A stretch of DNA of 64,000 nt from Roseithermus sacchariphilus. GTDB lineage: Bacteria > Bacteroidota > Rhodothermia > Rhodothermales > MEBIC09517. The stretch is from positions 3,516,664 through 3,580,663 of the forward strand of contig CP030158.1 of the NCBI GenBank assembly GCA_003285105.1. The letters are read 5' to 3'. The notes beneath the pieces were generated by a model, which saw only the letters and a list, made by a program, of their open reading frames with translations, made no database searches and was not told the origin of the DNA. The translations under genes were made by a program, and so were the position numbers. Shown here piece after piece: positions 17,473 to 27,940 of the stretch; position 1 is the stretch's first letter, and each line of letters opens with the position of its first letter.

Positions 17473-18399
17473 TCAGCCGGTCGTCATCTCACGAGCCCGG
17501 GCCGTCGCCGACTCGGCCCGCAACGAATGGCCGAAGCTCTTGACGACGAACAGAGGACACGGAGCCCGGTGCAACACACGCTCCGTCACGCTGCCCAGCA
17601 GCAACCGGCGCAGTCCGGAACGGCCGTGGGTCGCCATGACGATCAGGTCGCTCCCGAGCGCCTCGGCCGTCTCGACGATGACGCGCTCCGGCACACCTTT
17701 ACGGATGTGCGTCGCGACCGGTACCGCCGGCCTCTCCCCTTCCACCAGCCGGCACAGGGCCTCCTCCGCCCGCTGCTCCGCTTCCCCGACGGCAGCCGGG
17801 ACGGGCTCGATGCTGTAGGCCGGGGGGAGCACCTGGGTGGGCACGACGTGCAGCACGTCCAGACGCGCCTCATAGCGACGTGCCAGATCCACGGCAACGT
17901 GCAGCGCCTCACGGGCGTGCGCGGAAAAGTCGGTGGGCACGAGGATCGCCCCGACGGACGGGGTGGCGTCCGCTCCCGGCTTTTCCCGGACGGCCAGCAC
18001 CGGGCAGGGTGCCTCACGCACCAGCTCGTCCGTCACACTCCCCACCACAAACCGCCGCACCCCCGAGTGCCCGTGCATACCGATCACGATGAGATCGTAC
18101 GCTTCACGGGCGACCAGCTTGAGCAGCGCCGCAACCACCCCCACGCCGGGCACGCGTCGGTGCGACACCCGATCCGGGTCGGCCGCCAGCCAGTAGCGCA
18201 CCGCATCGCTGAGGGGCGGCTCCCCGGCCGTGACGGCGACGTTCACCACGTCCACCGAGGCCTCGTAGCGATGTGCCAGTTCCATCGCATGGGCCAGCGC
18301 CAGATCGGCACACCCCGAATAATCGGTCGGGACGAGGATACGGTCGATACGCAGCATATTCCTGACGCTGTCGTCCGGGGAGGTCAGACGCCGGCTCAT
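17473..18399 (-). CDS. Tandem-domain universal stress protein (second of pair)
   Basis: A 308-aa cytoplasmic protein made of two UspA folds. Both domains keep the ATP-binding G-x2-G-x9-G(S/T) pattern: GMHGHSGVRRFVVGSV in the first and ATHGRSGLRRLLLGSV in the second. Each starts with the family beta strand ILVPTDYSG or ILVPTDFSA. Two-domain Usps bind ATP and help survival in growth arrest, hypoxia or oxidative stress. The ATG overlaps the stop of the preceding Usp gene as ATGA, so the two are translationally coupled and were probably duplicated. A FixL-like/NarL-type pair lies just upstream. Confidence 0.92.
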   Translation of the reverse strand: MSRRLTSPDDSVRNMLRIDRILVPTDYSGCADLALAHAMELAHRYEASVDVVNVAVTAGEPPLSDAVRYWLAADPDRVSHRRVPGVGVVAALLKLVAREAYDLIVIGMHGHSGVRRFVVGSVTDELVREAPCPVLAVREKPGADATPSVGAILVPTDFSAHAREALHVAVDLARRYEARLDVLHVVPTQVLPPAYSIEPVPAAVGEAEQRAEEALCRLVEGERPAVPVATHIRKGVPERVIVETAEALGSDLIVMATHGRSGLRRLLLGSVTERVLHRAPCPLFVVKSFGHSLRAESATARAREMTTG

Positions 18400-19358
18400 A
18401 CCGGCTCCTGCTCCGCCGGGTGCGGTTGCGGGACGGGGACCAGCATCTTCCCGAAGGCCTTCAGCGTGAACACGGGGCACTCCACCGACTGGACGACGTG
18501 TTCGGCCACGCTGCCGATCAGGAAGTGCTCCAGCCCCGTCAGCCCGTGGGTCGACATCACCACGAGGTCGCTGCCGAGGGCCTCGGCTTCCTGGACGATG
18601 GCATCCGCCGCGCGCCCCGGCCGAACGTGGACGGTCACCGGCACGTCGGGCCCCGGCGTTTCTTCGACGAGCCGCCGAAGGACCTCCCGGCTCTTCTGTT
18701 CGATGTCGGGCGTGGCGTCGTAGATCGAGGCATAGATGCCGGTGGTGTAGAACGCCGGATGCACGTACTCCTCGATCACGTGGAGCAGGTCGATGGAAGC
18801 CCCGTACAGGCCGGCGAGGGCTTTCGCGTGGACCAGCGCCGCACGGGCATGGGCCGAGAAGTCGACGGGCACGAGCAGCCGCTCGACGGACGGGGGCGCG
18901 GATGGCGTCCGGGGGCGGGGGCGGACGGTCAGCACCGGACACGGGGCCCGCTGCACGACCTCCCGGGCCACGCTTCCGAGGAGCATCCGCCGCACGCCGC
19001 GCCGTCCGTGCGTGCCCATGACGATCAGGTCGATGTCATGCTCCCGGGCGTAGTCCAGAATGGCCCGGGCCGGCGCGACGTCCCGCGTCATCGCGTGCTC
19101 GACCCGCAGATCCCCCGGATCGAAGGCCAGGGGCGCCGCCTCGTCCGGATCCAGCAGGCGGCGGATCACGTCGCGGGCCTTTTCCCCGACGGGCATCTGC
19201 GGCTCATCGGGCGCAAGCAGCGCGTCGTGCCGGGTGTCTGCATACAGGACGTGCAGCGTCGCATCCATGCGCCGCGCGAGGTCCAGCGCGTAGGCGAGCG
19301 CGTGTTCGGAGCAGGATGAAAAGTCCCGCGCCATCAGGATGTGGCGTACGTGCATCAT
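18396..19358 (-). CDS. Tandem-domain universal stress protein (first of pair)
   Basis: A 320-aa protein with two UspA domains, both with ATP-binding signatures (GTHGRRGVRRMLLGSV and STHGLTGLEHFLIGSV). The ATG at 19358 is chosen over the in-frame start at 19457 because a strong ribosome-binding sequence, GGGGAGGAG, lies directly before it; such sites are uncommon in this window. It leads the two-gene usp operon and is preceded by a 617-bp region with inverted repeats. It is a likely target of the two-component system encoded upstream, by analogy with DosR-controlled usp genes; this is inference. Confidence 0.92.
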   Translation of the reverse strand: MMHVRHILMARDFSSCSEHALAYALDLARRMDATLHVLYADTRHDALLAPDEPQMPVGEKARDVIRRLLDPDEAAPLAFDPGDLRVEHAMTRDVAPARAILDYAREHDIDLIVMGTHGRRGVRRMLLGSVAREVVQRAPCPVLTVRPRPRTPSAPPSVERLLVPVDFSAHARAALVHAKALAGLYGASIDLLHVIEEYVHPAFYTTGIYASIYDATPDIEQKSREVLRRLVEETPGPDVPVTVHVRPGRAADAIVQEAEALGSDLVVMSTHGLTGLEHFLIGSVAEHVVQSVECPVFTLKAFGKMLVPVPQPHPAEQEPV

Positions 19359-19975
19359 GGCGGCTCCTCCCCGTGTTCGTCCTCGTGGGTCTGGGCGGGC
19401 CTCACCACGACTCGTGCGCTCGCGTGCTCGTGCACTCGGTGAAGCTCTCCGGGGCAACGTAGCCCGTACCGTACCGTGGCCCTGACAGGGATCGACCCGA
19501 TCTGATCCCCTGCATTCCCCTCACGGGTGGTCAGGGCTTCCCCTGACCCGGCTGTAAGCCGGCGCCTGACCCCTTCCAACGGATCCGGGCCACCCGGCAG
19601 GTCGCCGGATGGCCCGGTACCACCACGTCACGCACCATCACAGAGTTCGCATCGAGCCCGGGATCCTGCACCGTCCCGGCCGTGGTTGAGAGATGCCTGT
19701 TGAAGACGCCGGGAACGGGAGGAGACTCGGATGCCGACGCCGCCGTTCCTCTGGTCCACACCAGCTGCCATGATGTGAACCGGAACAGGACGTCGTTCGC
19801 CGTCTCTGTCGACCGTGTGGTCCGTGGTTGGAAAGAACATGAGTATGTTCTCCCACGAGGATACCCCTCCGGCAGGCCCGGCGATGCCGGTGAATCCACC
19901 CGGCGCCTGACGGGGAGGCCTGCCGCGCCGCGTAAGGTGCTCCCCGGCAGGCTGAGGGAGAGCCCTCCGGCGCCG
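19359..19975. other. 617-bp gene-free region upstream of usp genes with inverted repeats
   Basis: No convincing gene is seen; open frames here have arginine- and serine-rich random-looking translations. Three inverted repeats stand out: CCCTG-A-CAGGG (19480-19490), GGTCAGGG-cttc-CCCTGACC (19529-19548) and AGAACAT-gagt-ATGTTCT (19834-19851). A TACGTTGC -7-like element for the usp genes lies at 19461-19454 on the minus strand, without a -33 TTG, which would fit activator-dependent transcription. The part next to 19975 can form GC-rich hairpins that may end the response-regulator transcript. Confidence 0.5.
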
Positions 19976-20626
19976 TCAGCCAACGCGCTCGCCCTCGACC
20001 CATTGCACGGCGTGCTGCATCAGTTCCGCCGCGGTGTTCAGGTTGAGCTTCGTCTTGATCCGGGCCCGGTAGGACTCGACGGTCTTGACCGAGAGGTGCA
20101 GTTGCTCGGCGATCTCCCGCGTGCTCAGCCCCCGGCCGGTCAGCTCGAAGACCTCGAGTTCCCGGTCGCTGAGCACCTCCAGAGGCGACTGCGCCAGCGT
20201 CTTCCGGCCCGTCACCATGCCCATCAGCAGGCGCTCGTTGATCTCCTCCGACACGTAGATGCCGCCATTGAGCACCCGCCGCACGGCTTTGACGATAACC
20301 TGGCCGGCTTCGAGCTTCATCACGTACCCACGCGCCCCGGCCCGGATCGCGCGCTCGGCATAGAGCGACTCGTCGTGGCGGGACACCACGAGGATGCCCA
20401 GGTCCGGCTTCCGGGCGTGCATGTGCTTGATCAACTCCAGCCCGCTCATGCCCGGCAGCGAGATATCCACGATGGCGAGATCAGGGTCATATTTCTCCAG
20501 CGCTTCAAGCCCCTCCTCCGCGTTCGATGCCTGGCCGACCATGACGAGGTCCGGCTCGGCTTCCAGCGTCATGGCCAGCCCCTTGCGCATCAGGGGATGG
20601 TCGTCGATGATGATGAGCTTATACAT
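19976..20626 (-). CDS. NarL/FixJ-family response regulator
   Basis: A 216-aa two-domain regulator. The receiver has the acidic pair DD at 8-9, phosphoacceptor Asp54 in LAIVDISLPGMSG, and a Lys near 104 (YVMKLE). The LuxR-type HTH (about 148-200) reads LSDRELEVFELTGRGLSTRE then IAEQLHLSVKTVESYRARI. It starts 26 bp after the sensor kinase gene on the same strand and is surely its partner. The CSRHDES-type wording of the dimer face and the GLSTREIAEQL helix are typical of the group. Likely targets include the usp operon directly downstream (inference). Confidence 0.94.
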   Translation of the reverse strand: MYKLIIIDDHPLMRKGLAMTLEAEPDLVMVGQASNAEEGLEALEKYDPDLAIVDISLPGMSGLELIKHMHARKPDLGILVVSRHDESLYAERAIRAGARGYVMKLEAGQVIVKAVRRVLNGGIYVSEEINERLLMGMVTGRKTLAQSPLEVLSDRELEVFELTGRGLSTREIAEQLHLSVKTVESYRARIKTKLNLNTAAELMQHAVQWVEGERVG

Positions 20627-20652
20627 GGTCGTGTCCGTCTGGTGTTGAAAGG

Positions 20653-22596
20653 TCAGGGTCGATGGCCGCGTGAGGACGTCATGGCCGCCTCCGGGCGAGG
20701 GAGTTGACAGCGAATCTCGGTTCCGCCGCTCTCCCGGCGGCGGATGTCGAGCTTGGCCCCCATGATCCGGGCACGGTATCGCATGATGTGGACGCCCATG
20801 CCGCGCTTCTCTTCGTCCAGCATCTCGGGGAAGCCCACGCCGTCGTCCACCACGCGCAGGATCACCTCATCGTTTTCACGCTCCATGTGGATGGTCACGT
20901 GCGTGGCTTTGCCGTGCTTGACGGCGTTGCTGACAGCTTCCTGCGCGATGCGGTAGAGATGGGTGGCGACCGAGTTGTCATGGACCGGCACCTCCTCCTC
21001 CGCGACGAGGTCGCACCGGATGCCGAAGAGCCGCTCGGCGTTGGAGGCCAGCCGCCGCAGCGCCGTCATCAAGCCACCGGCATCGAGTTCCACCGGCGTC
21101 AGACCGCGCGTGAGGCTCCGGGCATACTGATCCGCCTCCTGGATCAGTTCGGCGATCTCCTGGACCTGACGGGCTTCCTCCAGCCCTTTTTTCTCCATCT
21201 GCCGGGCGAGGCTCTGGCTGATCAGGCCGATCCCCGTCAGCATCTGCCCGAGGCCGTCGTGCAGGTCCTGCCCGATGCGGCGCCGCTCTTGATCGCTGAT
21301 CCGCAGGATCTCCCGCTCCATCTGCCGCCGGGATGAAATGTCCCGCACGATGCCGCTGTAGATCCGCCGGCCATTGAGCCGCACCTCGCTCACGGCCAGA
21401 TCCATCGGAAAGATCTCCCCGTTTTTGCGCTGTCCGATGATCTCGCGCCCGATCCCGATGATCTTGCGCCGACCGGTCCGGTGATAGTTCTCGATATAGC
21501 CATCGTGCTCCTCGCGGTAGGGCGAGGGCATCAGGACCCTGACGTTCTTCCCGATGACCTCCTCGGCCGTGTATCCGAAGATCCGCTCTGCCGCGGCATT
21601 GAAGGATTCGATGCAGCCGCGTTCATCGATGGTGATGATGCCGTCTACCGTGGTGCTGAGGATGGCGCGCGCCTTGGCCTCGCTCTCCCGCAGCGCCTCC
21701 TCGGCCGCCCGCGCTTTGATCGTCTCGGACAGGATGTTGACGACGGCCTGGACGAAGTCGACGTCCTGTTTCCCGAAGGCACCGGGCGCCGGGGCGAAGA
21801 CCGCGAGCACCCCGAACGGCTGCGTGCGCCCATCGATGACGAGGCACAGCCCACTCCGCACGTCGGCGTCGAGCATCCACGGCGGCAGGGCGAAGCGCGT
21901 CTCCGCAGCGGCATCGTCGATGACGATGGGGGCGCCGTCGTGCAGGGCATAGCCCGGCAGATAGGCCGGGCCGGGGGGCACCTCCGTCTCGGGAGGCAGG
22001 GCGGGCTCCCAGCCCCAGGCGGCTTGAAGGCGAAACGTCGCCTCGGGCGTCTCCGCCGTCAGGATCACCCCGCACCGCGCGTTCAGGGCGGCCACGGTGC
22101 CCTGAACGGCATAGTCCAGCATGGTCTGCACGTCGGTCCGTGCCAGCGCCTGCTTGCCCAGTTCGGCGACGACGGCCTGCTGGCGGGCCCGCGCCGCCAG
22201 CTCGGCCTCGCTGAGCCGGCGGCGGCGCTTGGCGTGCACCTTGCGCTCCAGAAACTGCATCCGCGCGTTGAACCGGGCCGCCTCCACCGTCCCCAGGTAA
22301 AAATCGTCGATGCCGTGGTCCTCCAGGATGTCCAGCATCGAGGCCCCCGACTCATCGGGCAGGACGATCAGGATCGTTCGCTCGATGCCTTTCTCTCCGG
22401 CCCAGATCTCGCGGCACGCATCTAGGTCGGCTTCATCGGTCAGGATCAGCACAAGCAGCGGAGGGTCCGTCTCGGCGCAGTGCTGCCGGGCCTCATCCGG
22501 GCGGGCACAGACCTGCACGTCGTGCCCCCGGCGCGTCAGGATGGCCGCCACCTCCGAGCGGAGTGAGGCGGCTTTTCCGTAGAGCAAGGTCTGCAT
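20653..22596 (-). CDS. FixL-like PAS sensor histidine kinase (NarX/DegS-type catalytic core)
   Basis: A 647-aa cytoplasmic kinase without membrane helices, starting at the ATG at 22596. Domains: a degenerate receiver-like N-terminus (1-125), a GAF domain (about 150-295), a PAS domain (310-425), a HisKA_3 helix with phosphoacceptor His446 (QDLHDGLGQ), and an HATPase (E553/N557 in IAQEAVSNAVKHG; DDGVGF). The PAS closely follows FixL: LMPSPYREEHDGYIENY places a His at 364 where FixL has its haem ligand, and IIGIGRE supplies Arg384, equivalent to the O2-sensing FixL arginine. FixL R206 is replaced by Asn. Haem binding and O2 sensing are therefore plausible but unproven. Confidence 0.9.
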   Translation of the reverse strand: MQTLLYGKAASLRSEVAAILTRRGHDVQVCARPDEARQHCAETDPPLLVLILTDEADLDACREIWAGEKGIERTILIVLPDESGASMLDILEDHGIDDFYLGTVEAARFNARMQFLERKVHAKRRRRLSEAELAARARQQAVVAELGKQALARTDVQTMLDYAVQGTVAALNARCGVILTAETPEATFRLQAAWGWEPALPPETEVPPGPAYLPGYALHDGAPIVIDDAAAETRFALPPWMLDADVRSGLCLVIDGRTQPFGVLAVFAPAPGAFGKQDVDFVQAVVNILSETIKARAAEEALRESEAKARAILSTTVDGIITIDERGCIESFNAAAERIFGYTAEEVIGKNVRVLMPSPYREEHDGYIENYHRTGRRKIIGIGREIIGQRKNGEIFPMDLAVSEVRLNGRRIYSGIVRDISSRRQMEREILRISDQERRRIGQDLHDGLGQMLTGIGLISQSLARQMEKKGLEEARQVQEIAELIQEADQYARSLTRGLTPVELDAGGLMTALRRLASNAERLFGIRCDLVAEEEVPVHDNSVATHLYRIAQEAVSNAVKHGKATHVTIHMERENDEVILRVVDDGVGFPEMLDEEKRGMGVHIMRYRARIMGAKLDIRRRESGGTEIRCQLPRPEAAMTSSRGHRP

Positions 22597-22746
22597 GAGG
22601 AGCCTCAAGGCGTTCGGGCGGGGCCTCCGGCACGCCGGTGCATCACACGGCCGCCGGGGGCACCCTGATCGGTCAGCGGGAATGTACGACACACCATGAG
22701 GGCAGAAAGCGATCCTCTCCCTACGTTCGGCGTAGGGAAAACCCCC

Positions 22747-22786
22747 ACAGAAAAGCCCGGGCTCCGCTGAAGGAACCCGGGCTTCC
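22747..22786 (-). terminator. Intrinsic terminator after the NagB/PIG-L gene
   Basis: On the minus strand AAGCCCGGG (22784-22776) pairs with CCCGGGCTT (22761-22753), followed by TTCTGT. It lies 28 bp after the stop codon at 22814 and isolates this gene from the sensor kinase downstream. Confidence 0.8.
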
Positions 22787-22813: not shown

Positions 22814-24829
22814 TCAGGGCATATCGTACGTGGTGACGAACGCCTCGGCGGCGAAGAACTCGGGCAGACCGAGGCGGTTGAGCTCGTCGGCCGTGTTCCG
22901 GTTGCGGTCCATGGCGCGCTGCCAGAACTCGCGGGTGTCGTAGGCCCCCGGGAACATGGCCCGGTCCTTCTGGCTCTCGTGCTTGAAGATGGCCTCGATC
23001 TTGCGGTCCAGGTCTGCTTTGGACAGCGGGATGAACACGTCCGCCCGGGCGATCTCCCACTCCTGCCAGGCGCCCCGGTAGAGCCAGACCTGCGGCTTCG
23101 CGACGCCTCCGCCGGCGGATTTCGTCTTCCGTGCGCCTTTTTTGTCCTTGCCGGACTCGTCCGCCTCGGCCGGATCGGACTGCTGGTTGTAGAGCTTCAG
23201 AGCCTCCCGGATGGCGAAGTAGCACATCCGATGCGTGCCGTGCGGGTCCGAGAGGTCGCCGGCCACGAAGACGTGATCGGGCTTGACCTCGTTGAGCAGA
23301 TCCAGCACCTTCTGGATGTCCGCCGGCCCCACGGGCGACTTACGCACGCGGCCGGTCTTGTAGAAGGGCATGTCCATGAAGCGTGCGTGCTCCGGCCCCA
23401 GGCCCATCACCTCGATGCCGGCCACCGCCTCGGAGTAGCGAATGTAGGCCTTGAGCCGCTGGATCTCCTCCAGGTCGACCTCACCCGGCCCTTTCTTCTC
23501 CAGGAACTTGAGCAGCCGATCCTTCTGCGCGTGCACCTTCTGCATCAGCTCCGGGTCGGCCCCCAGCACCTCCATCGCCATGTCCATGAACTGCAGGTAG
23601 CGCCGCACGTCCGCATCGAACACGGCCACGGACCCGTTCGTCATGTAGGCGACGAGCACCTCGTTCTTGTTCGCGACGAGCTTGTCGAGCATCCCTCCCA
23701 TCGAGATGACGTCGTCGTCCGGGTGGGGGCTGAAGACGATGACGCGCTTTTTCTTGAAGAGATAATCGGGATAGATGATGCGCTGGCGCAGGTCCTCGAA
23801 CACCTCCCGGCACAGCACGTCGATGGACGGATAGCGGTTGGCCAGGCTGTGGAGGTGGTTGTTGAAGAAGTCGCTGGCCTCCAGGCGCAGGATGGCCTTG
23901 CCGACCTTCTCGGAGAGCCAGATCACCGCCCGTTTCGTCATGGCCGGGTCCCAATCGACCTCCTTGACCACCCAGGGCGTCTCCTCGCGCGTCAGCGCCG
24001 AGGCGGCAGCCCGGTCCACGTAGAACGTGGCGTTGCGGTGGAGTTGGAGGAAGGAGGCCGTCACCTCCCGCGTGGGCTCCTCCTCCACGGCCCGGCGCAC
24101 GATGGGGGCCTTGTGCTCGCCGGTGGCGAGCAGGATGATCTCCCGCGCTTCAAGGATGGTCCCGACGCCCATGGTGATGGCATGCCGCGGGACGTTCTCC
24201 TCGCCGAAGAAGTCGCTGGCGGCATCCCGCCGCGTGATCTCGTCCAGCACCACCAGGCGGGTGCGCGTCTCCATGCCGGAGCCGGGTTCGTTGAACCCGA
24301 TGTGCCCGCTCCGCCCGATGCCCAGCAGCATCAGGTCGATCCCCCCGGCCTTCTCGATGGCGAGTTCATAGGTGACGCAGTAGGCATCGACCTCCTCGAG
24401 AGGAATGTCGCCCCGGGGAATGTGGATGTTCTCGTCCGGGATGTTGACGTGGTCGAAGAAGTTCTCCCGCATAAACCGGTGATAGCTCTGGAGGCTGTCC
24501 GGTGAGATGGGGTAGTATTCGTCGAGGTTGAAGGTGATGACGTTCGAGAGGTCGAGGCCCTGATTCTGGTGCATGTACACCAGTTGCTGGTAGACCCCGA
24601 TGGGGGTGGAGCCCGTGGGCAGGCCGAGGACGACGTGCTGGCCGACGGCCCGGCGCTCCTCGACCAGGTTGGCAATGCGACGGGCCACCTGGTAGGCGAT
24701 CTGGGCCGGCTCCTCGAAGATGAGTACCGGCAGCCGCTCGCGCTGCGTCCCTTCGTTCATGGAGTGCGTGAGTTGCCGGGCCTTGGGCAGGTCGATCGTG
24801 GGGGATGACCGGGGCATGGTCGTGCGCAT
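22814..24829 (-). CDS. NagB-like glucosamine-6-phosphate deaminase fused to PIG-L deacetylase domain
   Basis: A 671-aa fusion (ATG at 24829; 24817 also possible). The N-terminal half is NagB-like (LGLPTGSTPIGVYQQL, FNLDEYYPI), and the C-terminal half from about residue 370 is PIG-L/LmbE-like with the Zn motif FSPHPDDDVISMGG and a later DLSDPHGTHRM. Together they suggest amino-sugar deacetylation and deamination. The NagB active-site segment reads GIGRSGHIGFNEPGS, with Ser replacing the Asp of the usual GxDGHIAFNEP, so deaminase chemistry may be altered. This fusion is known in Bacteroidota. A Lys-rich linker (KDKKGARKTKS) interrupts the PIG-L part. It has its own promoter and terminator. Confidence 0.9.
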   Translation of the reverse strand: MRTTMPRSSPTIDLPKARQLTHSMNEGTQRERLPVLIFEEPAQIAYQVARRIANLVEERRAVGQHVVLGLPTGSTPIGVYQQLVYMHQNQGLDLSNVITFNLDEYYPISPDSLQSYHRFMRENFFDHVNIPDENIHIPRGDIPLEEVDAYCVTYELAIEKAGGIDLMLLGIGRSGHIGFNEPGSGMETRTRLVVLDEITRRDAASDFFGEENVPRHAITMGVGTILEAREIILLATGEHKAPIVRRAVEEEPTREVTASFLQLHRNATFYVDRAAASALTREETPWVVKEVDWDPAMTKRAVIWLSEKVGKAILRLEASDFFNNHLHSLANRYPSIDVLCREVFEDLRQRIIYPDYLFKKKRVIVFSPHPDDDVISMGGMLDKLVANKNEVLVAYMTNGSVAVFDADVRRYLQFMDMAMEVLGADPELMQKVHAQKDRLLKFLEKKGPGEVDLEEIQRLKAYIRYSEAVAGIEVMGLGPEHARFMDMPFYKTGRVRKSPVGPADIQKVLDLLNEVKPDHVFVAGDLSDPHGTHRMCYFAIREALKLYNQQSDPAEADESGKDKKGARKTKSAGGGVAKPQVWLYRGAWQEWEIARADVFIPLSKADLDRKIEAIFKHESQKDRAMFPGAYDTREFWQRAMDRNRNTADELNRLGLPEFFAAEAFVTTYDMP

Positions 24830-24882
24830 GTTGAGTGAGAAGGTATGCGGGATACCACCGTCAGGGCGGCGGCGCGGAGCGC

Positions 24883-24914
24883 GCAACATACGTCCGGACG
24901 CCGTCCTTCTTCAA
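24883..24914 (-). promoter_or_regulatory. Bacteroidota-type promoter for the NagB/PIG-L gene
   Basis: On the minus strand TTG (24914-24912) is followed after 21 nt by TATGTTGC (24890-24883), near the TTG-N19..21-TAnnTTTG consensus. The -7 element ends 53 nt before the chosen ATG at 24829, which supports that start. Confidence 0.42.
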
Positions 24915-24985: not shown

Positions 24986-26284
24986 CTACAACAACCCGAA
25001 CAGCCCCGGCAGCCACAGGCTCAGCGCCGGGACGTAGGTCACGATGAGCAGGGCCAGGATCATCGCCGCGAACAAGGGCAGCAGCGGGCGCACCACGCGG
25101 TCGATGGTCGTCTGCGCCACGGTGGTGCCCACGAACAGCACGCTGCCCACCGGCGGCGTACAGATGCCCACGCACAGGTTCAGCACCATGACGATCCCGA
25201 AGTGCGTCGGGTCCATCCCCAGCTCGATGGCAATGGGCAGAAAGATCGGCGTGAAGATGAGCACCGCCGGTGTCATGTCCATGAACGTCCCGACGACCAG
25301 CAGGATGAGGTTGATGATCAGAAAGATCACCACGCGGCTGTCCGTCAAAGCGATCAGGGCCGCGCTGATGCTCTGTGGGATGTTTTCGTAGGCCATCACC
25401 CACGACATCGCCATCGACGTACCGATCAGCAGCATCACGATAGCCGTTGTCCTGGCACTATCGAGCAGAATCCTGGGCAGGTCGCTCATCTTCATCTCCC
25501 GGTAGGCCACCGAAAGGAGGAAGGCGTAGAGCACCGCCACCGCCGCCGCCTCGGTCGCCGTGAAGATCCCCGCCACGATCCCGCCGATCACCACGATGAT
25601 GAGGAAGAGGCTGGGAATGGCGTCGATGAACCGCTTGAAGGCGACCGTCACCGAGAGCCGCTCGGCCGTCGGGTACTTCTTGCGGAAGGCATGGTAACCG
25701 GCCACGACGGCCAGCGCCAGGCCCGTCAGGATACCCGGGATGTACCCGGCCACGAAGAGCGCGGCGATGGAGACGCCCCCGCTGGCGAGCGAGTACACGA
25801 TGAGGATGTTGCTCGGGGGAATCAGCAACCCCGTCGTGGACGAGGTGATGTTGACGGCCGCGGTGAATTCGCGATCGTAGCCCTCTTTCACCATCGTCGG
25901 CGTCATCATGCCACCGATGGCCGAGGCCGCCGCCACGGCCGAGCCGGAGACGGCTCCGAAGAGCATGGCGGCGAGGATGTTGACGTAGGCCAGCCCGCCC
26001 GGCAGCATCCCGAGCAGGGATTTCGCCAGGTCGATCAACCGCCGGGCGATGCCGCCCTGGTTCATCAATTGCCCGGCCAGGATGAAGAACGGAATCGCCA
26101 GCAGCGCGAACGAGTCGAGGCCCGTCGCCATGCGCTGCGCCACGGTGGTCAGCGCCGGGAGGGTCTGGATGCTGAAGAGCATCGTGATGAGGGTACTGAC
26201 CCCGATGCAGAAGGCGATCGGGACTCCCACAGCCAGCAGCACGGCAAAGCTGAGGGCCAGGATGAGGACTTCCATCCACTCCAT
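24986..26284 (-). CDS. dctM: TRAP transporter large permease subunit (DctM)
   Basis: A 432-aa inner-membrane protein with about 12 hydrophobic helices, the transport subunit of a Na+-driven tripartite ATP-independent periplasmic importer. DctM hallmarks are GIPIAFCIG-like VGVPIAFCIGVSTL, LAIPFFILAGQLMNQGGIARRL, and GSVLFVGTTVAQ near the C-terminus. It is the last gene of a dctP-dctQ-dctM run, 48 bp after dctQ. TRAP systems of this family import carboxylated compounds such as C4-dicarboxylates, sugar acids or uronates. The surrounding sugar enzymes favour a sugar acid here, as inference only. Confidence 0.95.
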   Translation of the reverse strand: MEWMEVLILALSFAVLLAVGVPIAFCIGVSTLITMLFSIQTLPALTTVAQRMATGLDSFALLAIPFFILAGQLMNQGGIARRLIDLAKSLLGMLPGGLAYVNILAAMLFGAVSGSAVAAASAIGGMMTPTMVKEGYDREFTAAVNITSSTTGLLIPPSNILIVYSLASGGVSIAALFVAGYIPGILTGLALAVVAGYHAFRKKYPTAERLSVTVAFKRFIDAIPSLFLIIVVIGGIVAGIFTATEAAAVAVLYAFLLSVAYREMKMSDLPRILLDSARTTAIVMLLIGTSMAMSWVMAYENIPQSISAALIALTDSRVVIFLIINLILLVVGTFMDMTPAVLIFTPIFLPIAIELGMDPTHFGIVMVLNLCVGICTPPVGSVLFVGTTVAQTTIDRVVRPLLPLFAAMILALLIVTYVPALSLWLPGLFGLL

Positions 26285-26332
26285 GAGCGTACGGGTAGGT
26301 TCGGCCGGCCGGAGACCGGGATGAGCGAAACG

Positions 26333-26872
26333 TCAATCGATGGTGAGCCCGGGCGGGAGCGGTTCGTCCGTCCCGTTGCCGTCTGCGTCGGCCCCCGCCG
26401 CCAGCCGGCGGCGTAGCTCGACCATGTGCGCCACGTTGTAGAACACGATGAGCAGGCCGCTGACCGGCAGAACGATGTAGACGTAGCCCAGCGGCACCTG
26501 CAACGCGGCCGAGGTCTGCTCCAGCGCCAGCGTCACGTAGACGAGCTGCGTGCCGCCGATGATCATCACGGAGACGGCAAAGAGCAGCACGATCGACTCG
26601 ATGAACAGGTCGGTGTAATAGCGGCGGGCGCCGGTCTGCTTGCGCGGAAACAGGTCGATGGCCAGGTGAATGCGCTGCCCCACCCCGTAGCCGGCCCCGA
26701 GCACCCCGAGCCAGATGAGCAGGTAGCGAGACAGTTCATCGGTGAACGCGCTCGGGTCGCCCAGGATGAAGCGAGTGAAGACCTGCCACAGCACGTTGAG
26801 CGTCATGACGGCCATCAGGACGACCAGGAACCCGGCCAGGACCCGGTCCACGGCGGCTTTGAGTCGAAGCAT
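26333..26872 (-). CDS. dctQ: TRAP transporter small permease subunit (DctQ)
   Basis: A 179-aa membrane protein with four predicted helices, e.g. VDRVLAGFLVVLMAVMTLNV at the N-terminus and YVYIVLPVSGLLIVFYNVAH near the end. The family segment FTDELSRYLLIWLGVLGAGY is the best identifier. DctQ scaffolds the large permease DctM. The ATG lies 3 bp after the dctP stop, so the two are translationally close, with dctM following. The hydrophilic C-terminus is extended and acidic (AGADADGNGTDEPLP). Confidence 0.92.
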   Translation of the reverse strand: MLRLKAAVDRVLAGFLVVLMAVMTLNVLWQVFTRFILGDPSAFTDELSRYLLIWLGVLGAGYGVGQRIHLAIDLFPRKQTGARRYYTDLFIESIVLLFAVSVMIIGGTQLVYVTLALEQTSAALQVPLGYVYIVLPVSGLLIVFYNVAHMVELRRRLAAGADADGNGTDEPLPPGLTID

Positions 26873-26875
26873 GAG

Positions 26876-27940
26876 TCAGGGTTGCATGGGGGTGGATTCC
26901 GTCGCGACGCCGACCTCCGCCTCCGGCATCGACTGGATGGCCTGGATGTAGCGGTAGATCTGCTGATCGACCGGATCGTCGGAGTCGCGGTAGTCGTCGT
27001 AAATGGGTTGCACACGTTCGACGAAGGGCCTTTTGTCGGGGCGGTAGACGGTGACGCCGGCCGCCTGGACTTCCCGCAGCGCCTCATCGCTGGCCTCCTT
27101 CCAGAGCCGCCGCTGGTACACGGCGGATTCGCTGGCGGCCTCCTGCAGCCAGGCTTGCTGCTGCGGCGTCAGGCTCTCCCAGATCGTGGTGCTGATGAGC
27201 ACCACATCGGGCACGGACGTGTGCTCGTCGAGCGAATAGTGCGGCGCGATCTTGTAGTGCTGCGACGTGTAGAACGACGGCGGGTTGTTCTCGGCCCCGT
27301 CGACCACGCCCTGCTGGAGGGCCGTGTACAGCTCACCCCAGGCGATGGGTGTGGGCGAACCGCCCAGGACGCTCACCATGCGCTGCGCGGAAGGGCTTTC
27401 CTGCACCCGTATTTTAAGCCCGGCCAGGTCGTCCGGGTGCAGGATCGGCTTATCCTTGGTGTAGAAGCTGCGGCTGCCGGCGTCGTAGAAGCACAGCCCG
27501 CGCAGCCAGAACGGTTCGCTGCTCAGGAGCAGCTCCCGCCCGATCTCGCCGTCGAGCACCTCGTAGCTGTGCTCGATGTCCCGGAACAGGTAGGGCACGC
27601 TGAGCAGGCTGTAGACCGGCGCGAAGCCTTCCATCACCGCCGCCGACACCTTCGTCATGCCCAGGCTGCCGATCTGCAACAGCTCGACGAGTTGGCGCTC
27701 GTTGCCGAGTTGCTCACTCGGATAGACGTCGATGGTCATGGTGCCGCCGGACTTCTCCTCCAGGCGCTCGGCCATGTAGAGCATGGCGCGATGCACCGGG
27801 TGGAACGTATCCAGCCCGTGCCCCATCTTGATGACGACCCGGTCCGGGTCGGCCTGATGGGTCAGCCCGAGCAGCACACCGGCCAGCACCACCAGCCCGG
27901 CGATCAGGCACAGCGCCGGCAAGGTTTTCAGGTGTTTCAT
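26876..27940 (-). CDS. dctP: TRAP transporter solute-binding protein (DctP)
   Basis: A 354-aa periplasmic receptor with an N-terminal signal or anchor helix (TLPALCLIAGLVVLAGVLLGL). The DctP fold is shown by ERLEEKSGGTMTIDVYPSEQ then LGNERQLVELLQIGSLGMT, the ligand-clasping LKIRVQESPSAQRMVSVLGG (the conserved Arg of TRAP receptors), and PIAWGELYTALQQGVVDGAE. The Arg salt-bridges a substrate carboxylate, so the cargo should be an acid. First gene of the operon; its promoter is clearly visible 38 bp upstream. Confidence 0.95.
   Translation of the reverse strand: MKHLKTLPALCLIAGLVVLAGVLLGLTHQADPDRVVIKMGHGLDTFHPVHRAMLYMAERLEEKSGGTMTIDVYPSEQLGNERQLVELLQIGSLGMTKVSAAVMEGFAPVYSLLSVPYLFRDIEHSYEVLDGEIGRELLLSSEPFWLRGLCFYDAGSRSFYTKDKPILHPDDLAGLKIRVQESPSAQRMVSVLGGSPTPIAWGELYTALQQGVVDGAENNPPSFYTSQHYKIAPHYSLDEHTSVPDVVLISTTIWESLTPQQQAWLQEAASESAVYQRRLWKEASDEALREVQAAGVTVYRPDKRPFVERVQPIYDDYRDSDDPVDQQIYRYIQAIQSMPEAEVGVATESTPMQP

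Follow-up and report, generated by a model that had tools for sequence, protein, structure and literature searches.

A predicted oxygen-sensing two-component system of the Rhodothermales that combines a FixL-type haem-PAS kinase, a DosR-like regulator and a palindromic operator

The kinase-regulator pair of Roseithermus sacchariphilus described here is best explained as a cytoplasmic O2-sensing two-component system of the Rhodothermales, off in air and built as a chimera of the FixL and Dos types, and we consider this explanation likely to be correct. Visible in the compared sequences themselves are a FixL-type pocket, a conserved gene pair, its linkage to candidate target genes and an operator shared among them. 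The sign of control is presumably that of FixL, judged from homology and from the targets. The FixL kinase is switched off when its haem carries O2 (PMC8534201), and by this established mechanism the system is expected to be silent in air and active at low O2. A wider claim, to which we give slightly better than even chances, is that the main low-O2 switch of the Rhodothermales represents a distinct class of two-component systems, in which the sensor is of FixL type, the output is of DosS/DosR type, and one new operator ties the Usp/Acg quiescence proteins to high-affinity respiration and the supply of haem.

The analysed stretch, called the window in the following, comprises 64,000 nt of CP030158.1 (GCA_003285105.1; G000:C1:3516664-3580663) from a genome of 4.81 Mb. 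On the minus strand, the gene of a sensor histidine kinase of 647 amino acids (20653..22596) is followed 26 bp on by that of a NarL/FixJ-family response regulator (19976..20626) and, after a gap of 617 bp, by two genes of tandem Usp-domain proteins, usp1 (18396..19358, minus strand; 320 amino acids; PF00582, 1.8e-63) and usp2 (17473..18399, minus strand; 308 amino acids; PF00582, 1.1e-58). They overlap by 4 bases and carry two Usp domains each according to Pfam, which bears out a preliminary description that had placed two usp genes beside the pair. The operon upstream of the kinase is unrelated to it by Pfam content. There, the minus-strand stretches 22814-24889 and 24986-27940 encode a glucosamine-6-phosphate isomerase domain joined with a deacetylase domain of PIG-L/LmbE type, and this NagB-PIG-L fusion adjoins the three genes of a TRAP transporter (DctP, small permease, DctM); together they look like genes for amino-sugar uptake and use.

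The comparison set consisted of 80 genomes of the same order. The kinase is present in 59 of them, 56 of which were judged orthologues, and the regulator is usually encoded directly behind it, mostly with 60-81% identity to the regulator of the window. In 27 of 56 loci, usp genes are found no more than about 4 kb from the kinase, where at most 1.4 such loci are expected from the Usp-domain counts of the genomes; chance adjacency was rejected by this counting, with the caveat that the genomes are related, so that the counts are not independent and the linkage corresponds to about nine families. Of the 80 genomes, 31 have a true ccoN that exceeds the curated cut-off, and in 13 of these, belonging to seven families, it lies at most about 10 kb from the kinase. 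Unbiased clustering of neighbours recovered ccoN, ccoO, ccoP and ccoG of the cbb3 oxidase in up to ten kinase loci; fifteen have an Acg-type nitroreductase. An Acg assignment is backed by NF047509, with 337 bits vs a cut-off of 199. Kinase-less genomes have a median of 2 Usp domains, compared with 9.5 in kinase-bearing ones, and ccoN is found in 2 of 24 kinase-less versus 30 of 56 kinase-bearing genomes. Linkage and the shared operator described below strongly suggest that the kinase-regulator system controls the cbb3 oxidase. Verrucomicrobia and Planctomycetes also have the pair, mostly at 45-57% identity. Whether they share the regulon was considered and rejected, as usp, cbb3 and operator are mostly absent beside the pair, and the claim is therefore limited to the Rhodothermales, with hints in the Balneolia.

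For the search of a common operator, the regions upstream of usp, ccoN, acg and kinase genes, 178 distinct ones of at most 360 bases each, were scanned for every hexamer palindrome with spacers of 0-10 and 1 or 2 mismatches allowed, with dinucleotide shuffles as control. The dominant motif, GTAGGG-N5-CCCTAC, occurs in 65 of the 178 regions vs 1.25 in the shuffles, and when extended it reads TGTAGGG-N5-CCCTACA. Relative to the start codon, it stands at a median of -132. The operator is found in 27 of 30 ccoN upstream regions, whereas regions upstream of other conserved genes from the same loci, taken as control, carry it in 11 of 202 cases (Fisher p 1.5e-14). Operator sites amount to 0.29 in kinase-less genomes vs 1.38 in those with the kinase (p 2e-5), and the reversed pattern, serving as control, gave no kinase-dependent difference between genomes. 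Four kinase-less genomes do have sites; in two of these, G043 and G059, ccoN is present and completeness is 81-88%, so that a mere gap in the assembly may account for the lack of a kinase. A literature search with the letters of the palindrome returned unrelated sequence papers only.

In relatives, sites also precede nosZ with an Rrf2 regulator, a cytochrome c, a Tll0287-like protein and a P-type ATPase with a PF12156 domain, presumably a CcoI-like copper ATPase. In one of these relatives (L273:2947-2965), the operator stands between the gene of a nitrous-oxide reductase propeller (nosZ-like) and the Rrf2 regulator, and the regulon may reach denitrification. A Balneolia bacterium (L186) has a near-perfect palindrome, TGTAGGGGAAACCCCTACA, of 28.1 bits downstream of the regulator, 1534 bp after the start of the kinase core, hinting at an operator that is older than the Rhodothermales.

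The genome of R. sacchariphilus was left out of the training of the weight matrix, and its own sites were taken from pattern searches. The predicted operator of the kinase, CGTAGGGAAAACCCCCACA (22731..22749), scores 23.4 bits, which is the best value in the window by 12 bits. Its centre lies 144 bp ahead of the start of the kinase, and just one further site in the 4.8-Mb genome matches YGTRGGGN5CCCYACR perfectly. Allowing up to 2 mismatches gives nine sites genome-wide, six of which precede the kinase, two usp operons, an acg-usp operon, hemA and ccoN. The strongest (27.0 bits; 3114221-3114239) heads a tandem usp run at G000:C1:3110255-3114022; lower scores were obtained before another usp gene (20.4 bits), acg followed by usp (19.8 bits), hemA (19.5 bits) and ccoN (18.1 bits; genome 3726544-3726562). 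By a rough count of the eligible promoter length, the chance of five or more such promoter sites is below 1e-12. Sites at 1535605, 3816919 and 4028397 (16.5, 12.6 and 8.0 bits) have lower scores and overlap open frames; they were rejected as operators and are taken as chance.

The regulator consists of a receiver (PF00072) and a GerE/LuxR helix-turn-helix domain (PF00196). Among proteins of solved structure, NarL (1e-30) and DevR/DosR (2e-29) come closest to it, with FixJ at 9e-15, and its earlier classification as NarL-type stands. The recognition helix, KTVESYRARIK, is nearly invariant among 59 loci. We infer that this regulator binds TGTAGGG-N5-CCCTACA, since orphan copies of it (59-80% identical, with no kinase beside them) lie divergent from ccoN in seven further genomes, a site precedes the kinase gene, sites co-occur with the kinase, and the end bases of the palindrome resemble those of the GacA box, TGTAAG-N6-CTTACA, the site of a related regulator type (PMC4950607). 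It is unlikely that the palindrome marks the low-O2 regulon while another factor, either a paralogous regulator or one of Crp/Fnr type, binds to it and the pair is merely one of the targets. Such a reading could draw on the small share of kinase upstream regions with an operator of at most 2 mismatches (only 5 of 30) and on a paralogue of the regulator, similar to it in the recognition helix, that adjoins a motif-bearing usp gene in the same genome. Its difficulty lies in the orphan copies, which accompany ccoN where no kinase stands beside them, in the scarcity of sites in kinase-less genomes and in the GacA-like ends of the palindrome; moreover, the unbiased palindrome scan of the 178 upstream regions yielded no Fnr-like element. 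The paralogous locus (L103, genome 3364294-3368797) encodes a second HisKA_3 kinase, which lacks the haem-PAS residues, and a regulator (3368165-3368797) 55% identical to that of the window. This pair is divergent from the usp gene whose operator scores 20.4 bits, and its regulator may share the operator.

The partner of the regulator, the kinase of the window, is the presumed oxygen sensor. It is composed of a pseudo-receiver (residues 1-125), a GAF domain (154-293), a FixL-type PAS domain with His364 and Arg384 (310-421), a HisKA_3 domain with the phospho-acceptor His446 (437-504) and HATPase_c (544-635), of which the last four lie above the Pfam cut-offs. The N-terminus, which is absent from the preliminary description, was recognised in the AlphaFold2 model (pLDDT 82, 25 sequences), where residues 1-105 adopt an alternating, receiver-type fold with five strands; it has neither the acidic pair nor the conserved Lys of active receivers and is thus named a pseudo-receiver. 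GAF domain and HisKA_3 core had been described before and are in place, as is the FixL-type PAS with His364 and Arg384 at exactly these positions. In phmmer searches, the PAS domain matches FixL best (6e-37 to 1d06 from S. meliloti, 1.5e-31 to 8js5 from B. japonicum), with DosP far behind at 2e-15. Its identity in the fold search is 51% to S. meliloti FixL and 43% to B. japonicum FixL, and the modelled domain fits oxy-FixL 1dp6 with an rmsd of 1.1 Å over 115 columns (TM 0.95 by target). In the residue alignment, His364 falls on FixL H200 and Arg384 on R220. Among 60 PAS domains of the Rhodothermales loci, 59 retain both residues, the one exception being the second of two tandem PAS domains, and the signature is therefore not a matter of chance. 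The paralogous kinases of the R. sacchariphilus genome show no His/Arg signature in the alignment.

The full-length FixL model NF041777 gives the kinase 152 bits vs a cut-off of 850, from the PAS part only, and by Pfam the HisKA-type dimerisation domain of FixL is absent and replaced by HisKA_3. The core is thus of the HisKA_3/HPK7 type, as in DosS/DosT. The GAF domain found no DosS/DosT GAF among PDB sequences at E 1e-3; their ATPase domains alone were matched.

By homology and by its targets, the PAS domain probably binds haem and O2. Rather improbable is the alternative that the kinase serves the regulon while its PAS domain senses NO, CO, the redox state or another ligand, or binds no haem at all. 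FixL Arg206, which contacts the proximal haem propionate, is Asn370 in the kinase of the window and N, S or A in most relatives, and GAF and pseudo-receiver could be the main inputs. On the other hand, the haem-ligand His and the O2-binding Arg are near-invariant, the hydrophobic distal positions I215, L236 and I238 (FixL numbering) are unchanged or conservatively replaced across the 60 PAS domains, and cbb3 oxidase, copper ATPase and hemA are targets typical of low-O2 control.

By spacing, the usp pair of the window does not belong to the transcription unit of the regulator. The sole site near it, at 19931..19949 where the gap behind the regulator begins, is weak and doubtful; with 10.9 bits, it ranks third in the 64-kb window. 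With this weak site only, control by the regulator may occur by readthrough or via a diverged site, or may be absent. That the usp genes adjoin by chance an ordinary orphan system is highly improbable: the gap, the weak site before usp1 only and the 22 Usp domains of the R. sacchariphilus genome would fit it, but it is opposed by the excess of usp-linked loci, by usp genes starting about 60-80 bp past the regulator in several relatives and by the strong operators before other usp operons of the same genome. The unusually long gap also contains a perfect inverted repeat, GGTCAGGG-GAAG-CCCTGACC (19520-19539), about 170 bp before usp1, for which a terminator, a leader hairpin or a diverged operator are candidates. 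The gap also holds an open frame of 150 amino acids, whose sequence led us to dismiss it as spurious.

Implementing these observations, we propose the following mechanism. The PAS domain would bind haem via His364, and O2 bound to the haem and held by Arg384 would keep the kinase off. With falling O2, the deoxy kinase would autophosphorylate at His446 and phosphorylate the NarL/DosR-like regulator, which would then bind TGTAGGG-N5-CCCTACA about 100-170 bp before start codons. In this way, it is predicted to activate ccoNOPG (cbb3), the copper ATPase belonging to it, hemA, Usp proteins and Acg-family flavin reductases, as well as its own kinase-regulator operon.

In the open-access literature, we found no paper linking Rhodothermus to FixL and no comparable low-O2 control system for the Rhodothermales. 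The present analysis offers a concrete, order-wide predicted regulon with a defined operator for low-O2 control in this order.

The cbb3 oxidase (ccoNOPG) is the classical output of FixLJ. The system shares with FixL-FixJ a haem-PAS of the same sequence type, the predicted control of the cbb3 oxidase and its copper ATPase (equivalents of fixNOP, fixG and fixI) and a regulator that, like FixJ, joins a receiver to a LuxR-type DNA-binding domain. It differs from FixL in that HisKA_3 (HPK7) takes the place of HisKA, GAF and pseudo-receiver replace PAS-A, and Arg206 is exchanged; its regulator is much nearer to NarL and DosR than to FixJ. In contrast to the FixLJ regulon, the operator found here is palindromic, and usp and acg genes are included.

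With DosS/DosT-DosR (DevSR) of mycobacteria and OsdKR of Streptomyces, the system has in common the HisKA_3 kinase, the NarL-class regulator, a usp locus near the pair, an autoregulatory site and, here by sequence only, usp and Acg genes as core targets. Universal stress proteins and Acg-family flavin reductases/nitroreductases are core targets of the DosR regulon (PMC11876180, PMC5069765). DosS carries its haem in the GAF domain, whereas it is predicted in the PAS domain here, and a cbb3 oxidase and hemA are linked to the system described here in contrast to Dos. The palindrome TGTAGGG-N5-CCCTACA does not match a DosR-type operator, and the OsdR consensus AGGGCCGATCGGCCCT differs from it as well. 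The preliminary description had proposed a composition like that of the Dos module with a FixL-type sensor. Linkage to usp and Acg genes and the shared operator uphold this likeness, while the link to cbb3 had been missed and the site at the usp pair of the window is weak. A role in dormancy is presumed.

NmpRSTU of Myxococcus xanthus provides an independent example in which cbb3 and Usp genes are governed by a haem sensor, and its low-O2 regulon includes a cbb3 oxidase and Usp proteins (PMC11841059); its sensor is of globin type and its regulator a sigma54-dependent one of NtrC type. The lxa locus of Burkholderia cenocepacia has six usp genes that are induced by low O2, and it is involved in anoxic persistence (PMC9104464). 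It concerns another organism and another gene set, and Burkholderia has in addition a separate FixLJ that acts through fixK.

The system of the Rhodothermales lacks defining features on either side, namely the HisKA core and Arg206 of FixL as well as the GAF-haem and the operator of Dos, and is best called a chimera. As its strongest link is to cbb3, the FixLJ output, beside Usp and Acg, it appears to merge both regulons. This suggests that one switch can run the Usp/Acg 'dormancy' set together with the cbb3 oxidase, with an interchangeable sensor: a GAF-haem in mycobacteria, a globin in Myxococcus and a FixL-type PAS in the Rhodothermales.
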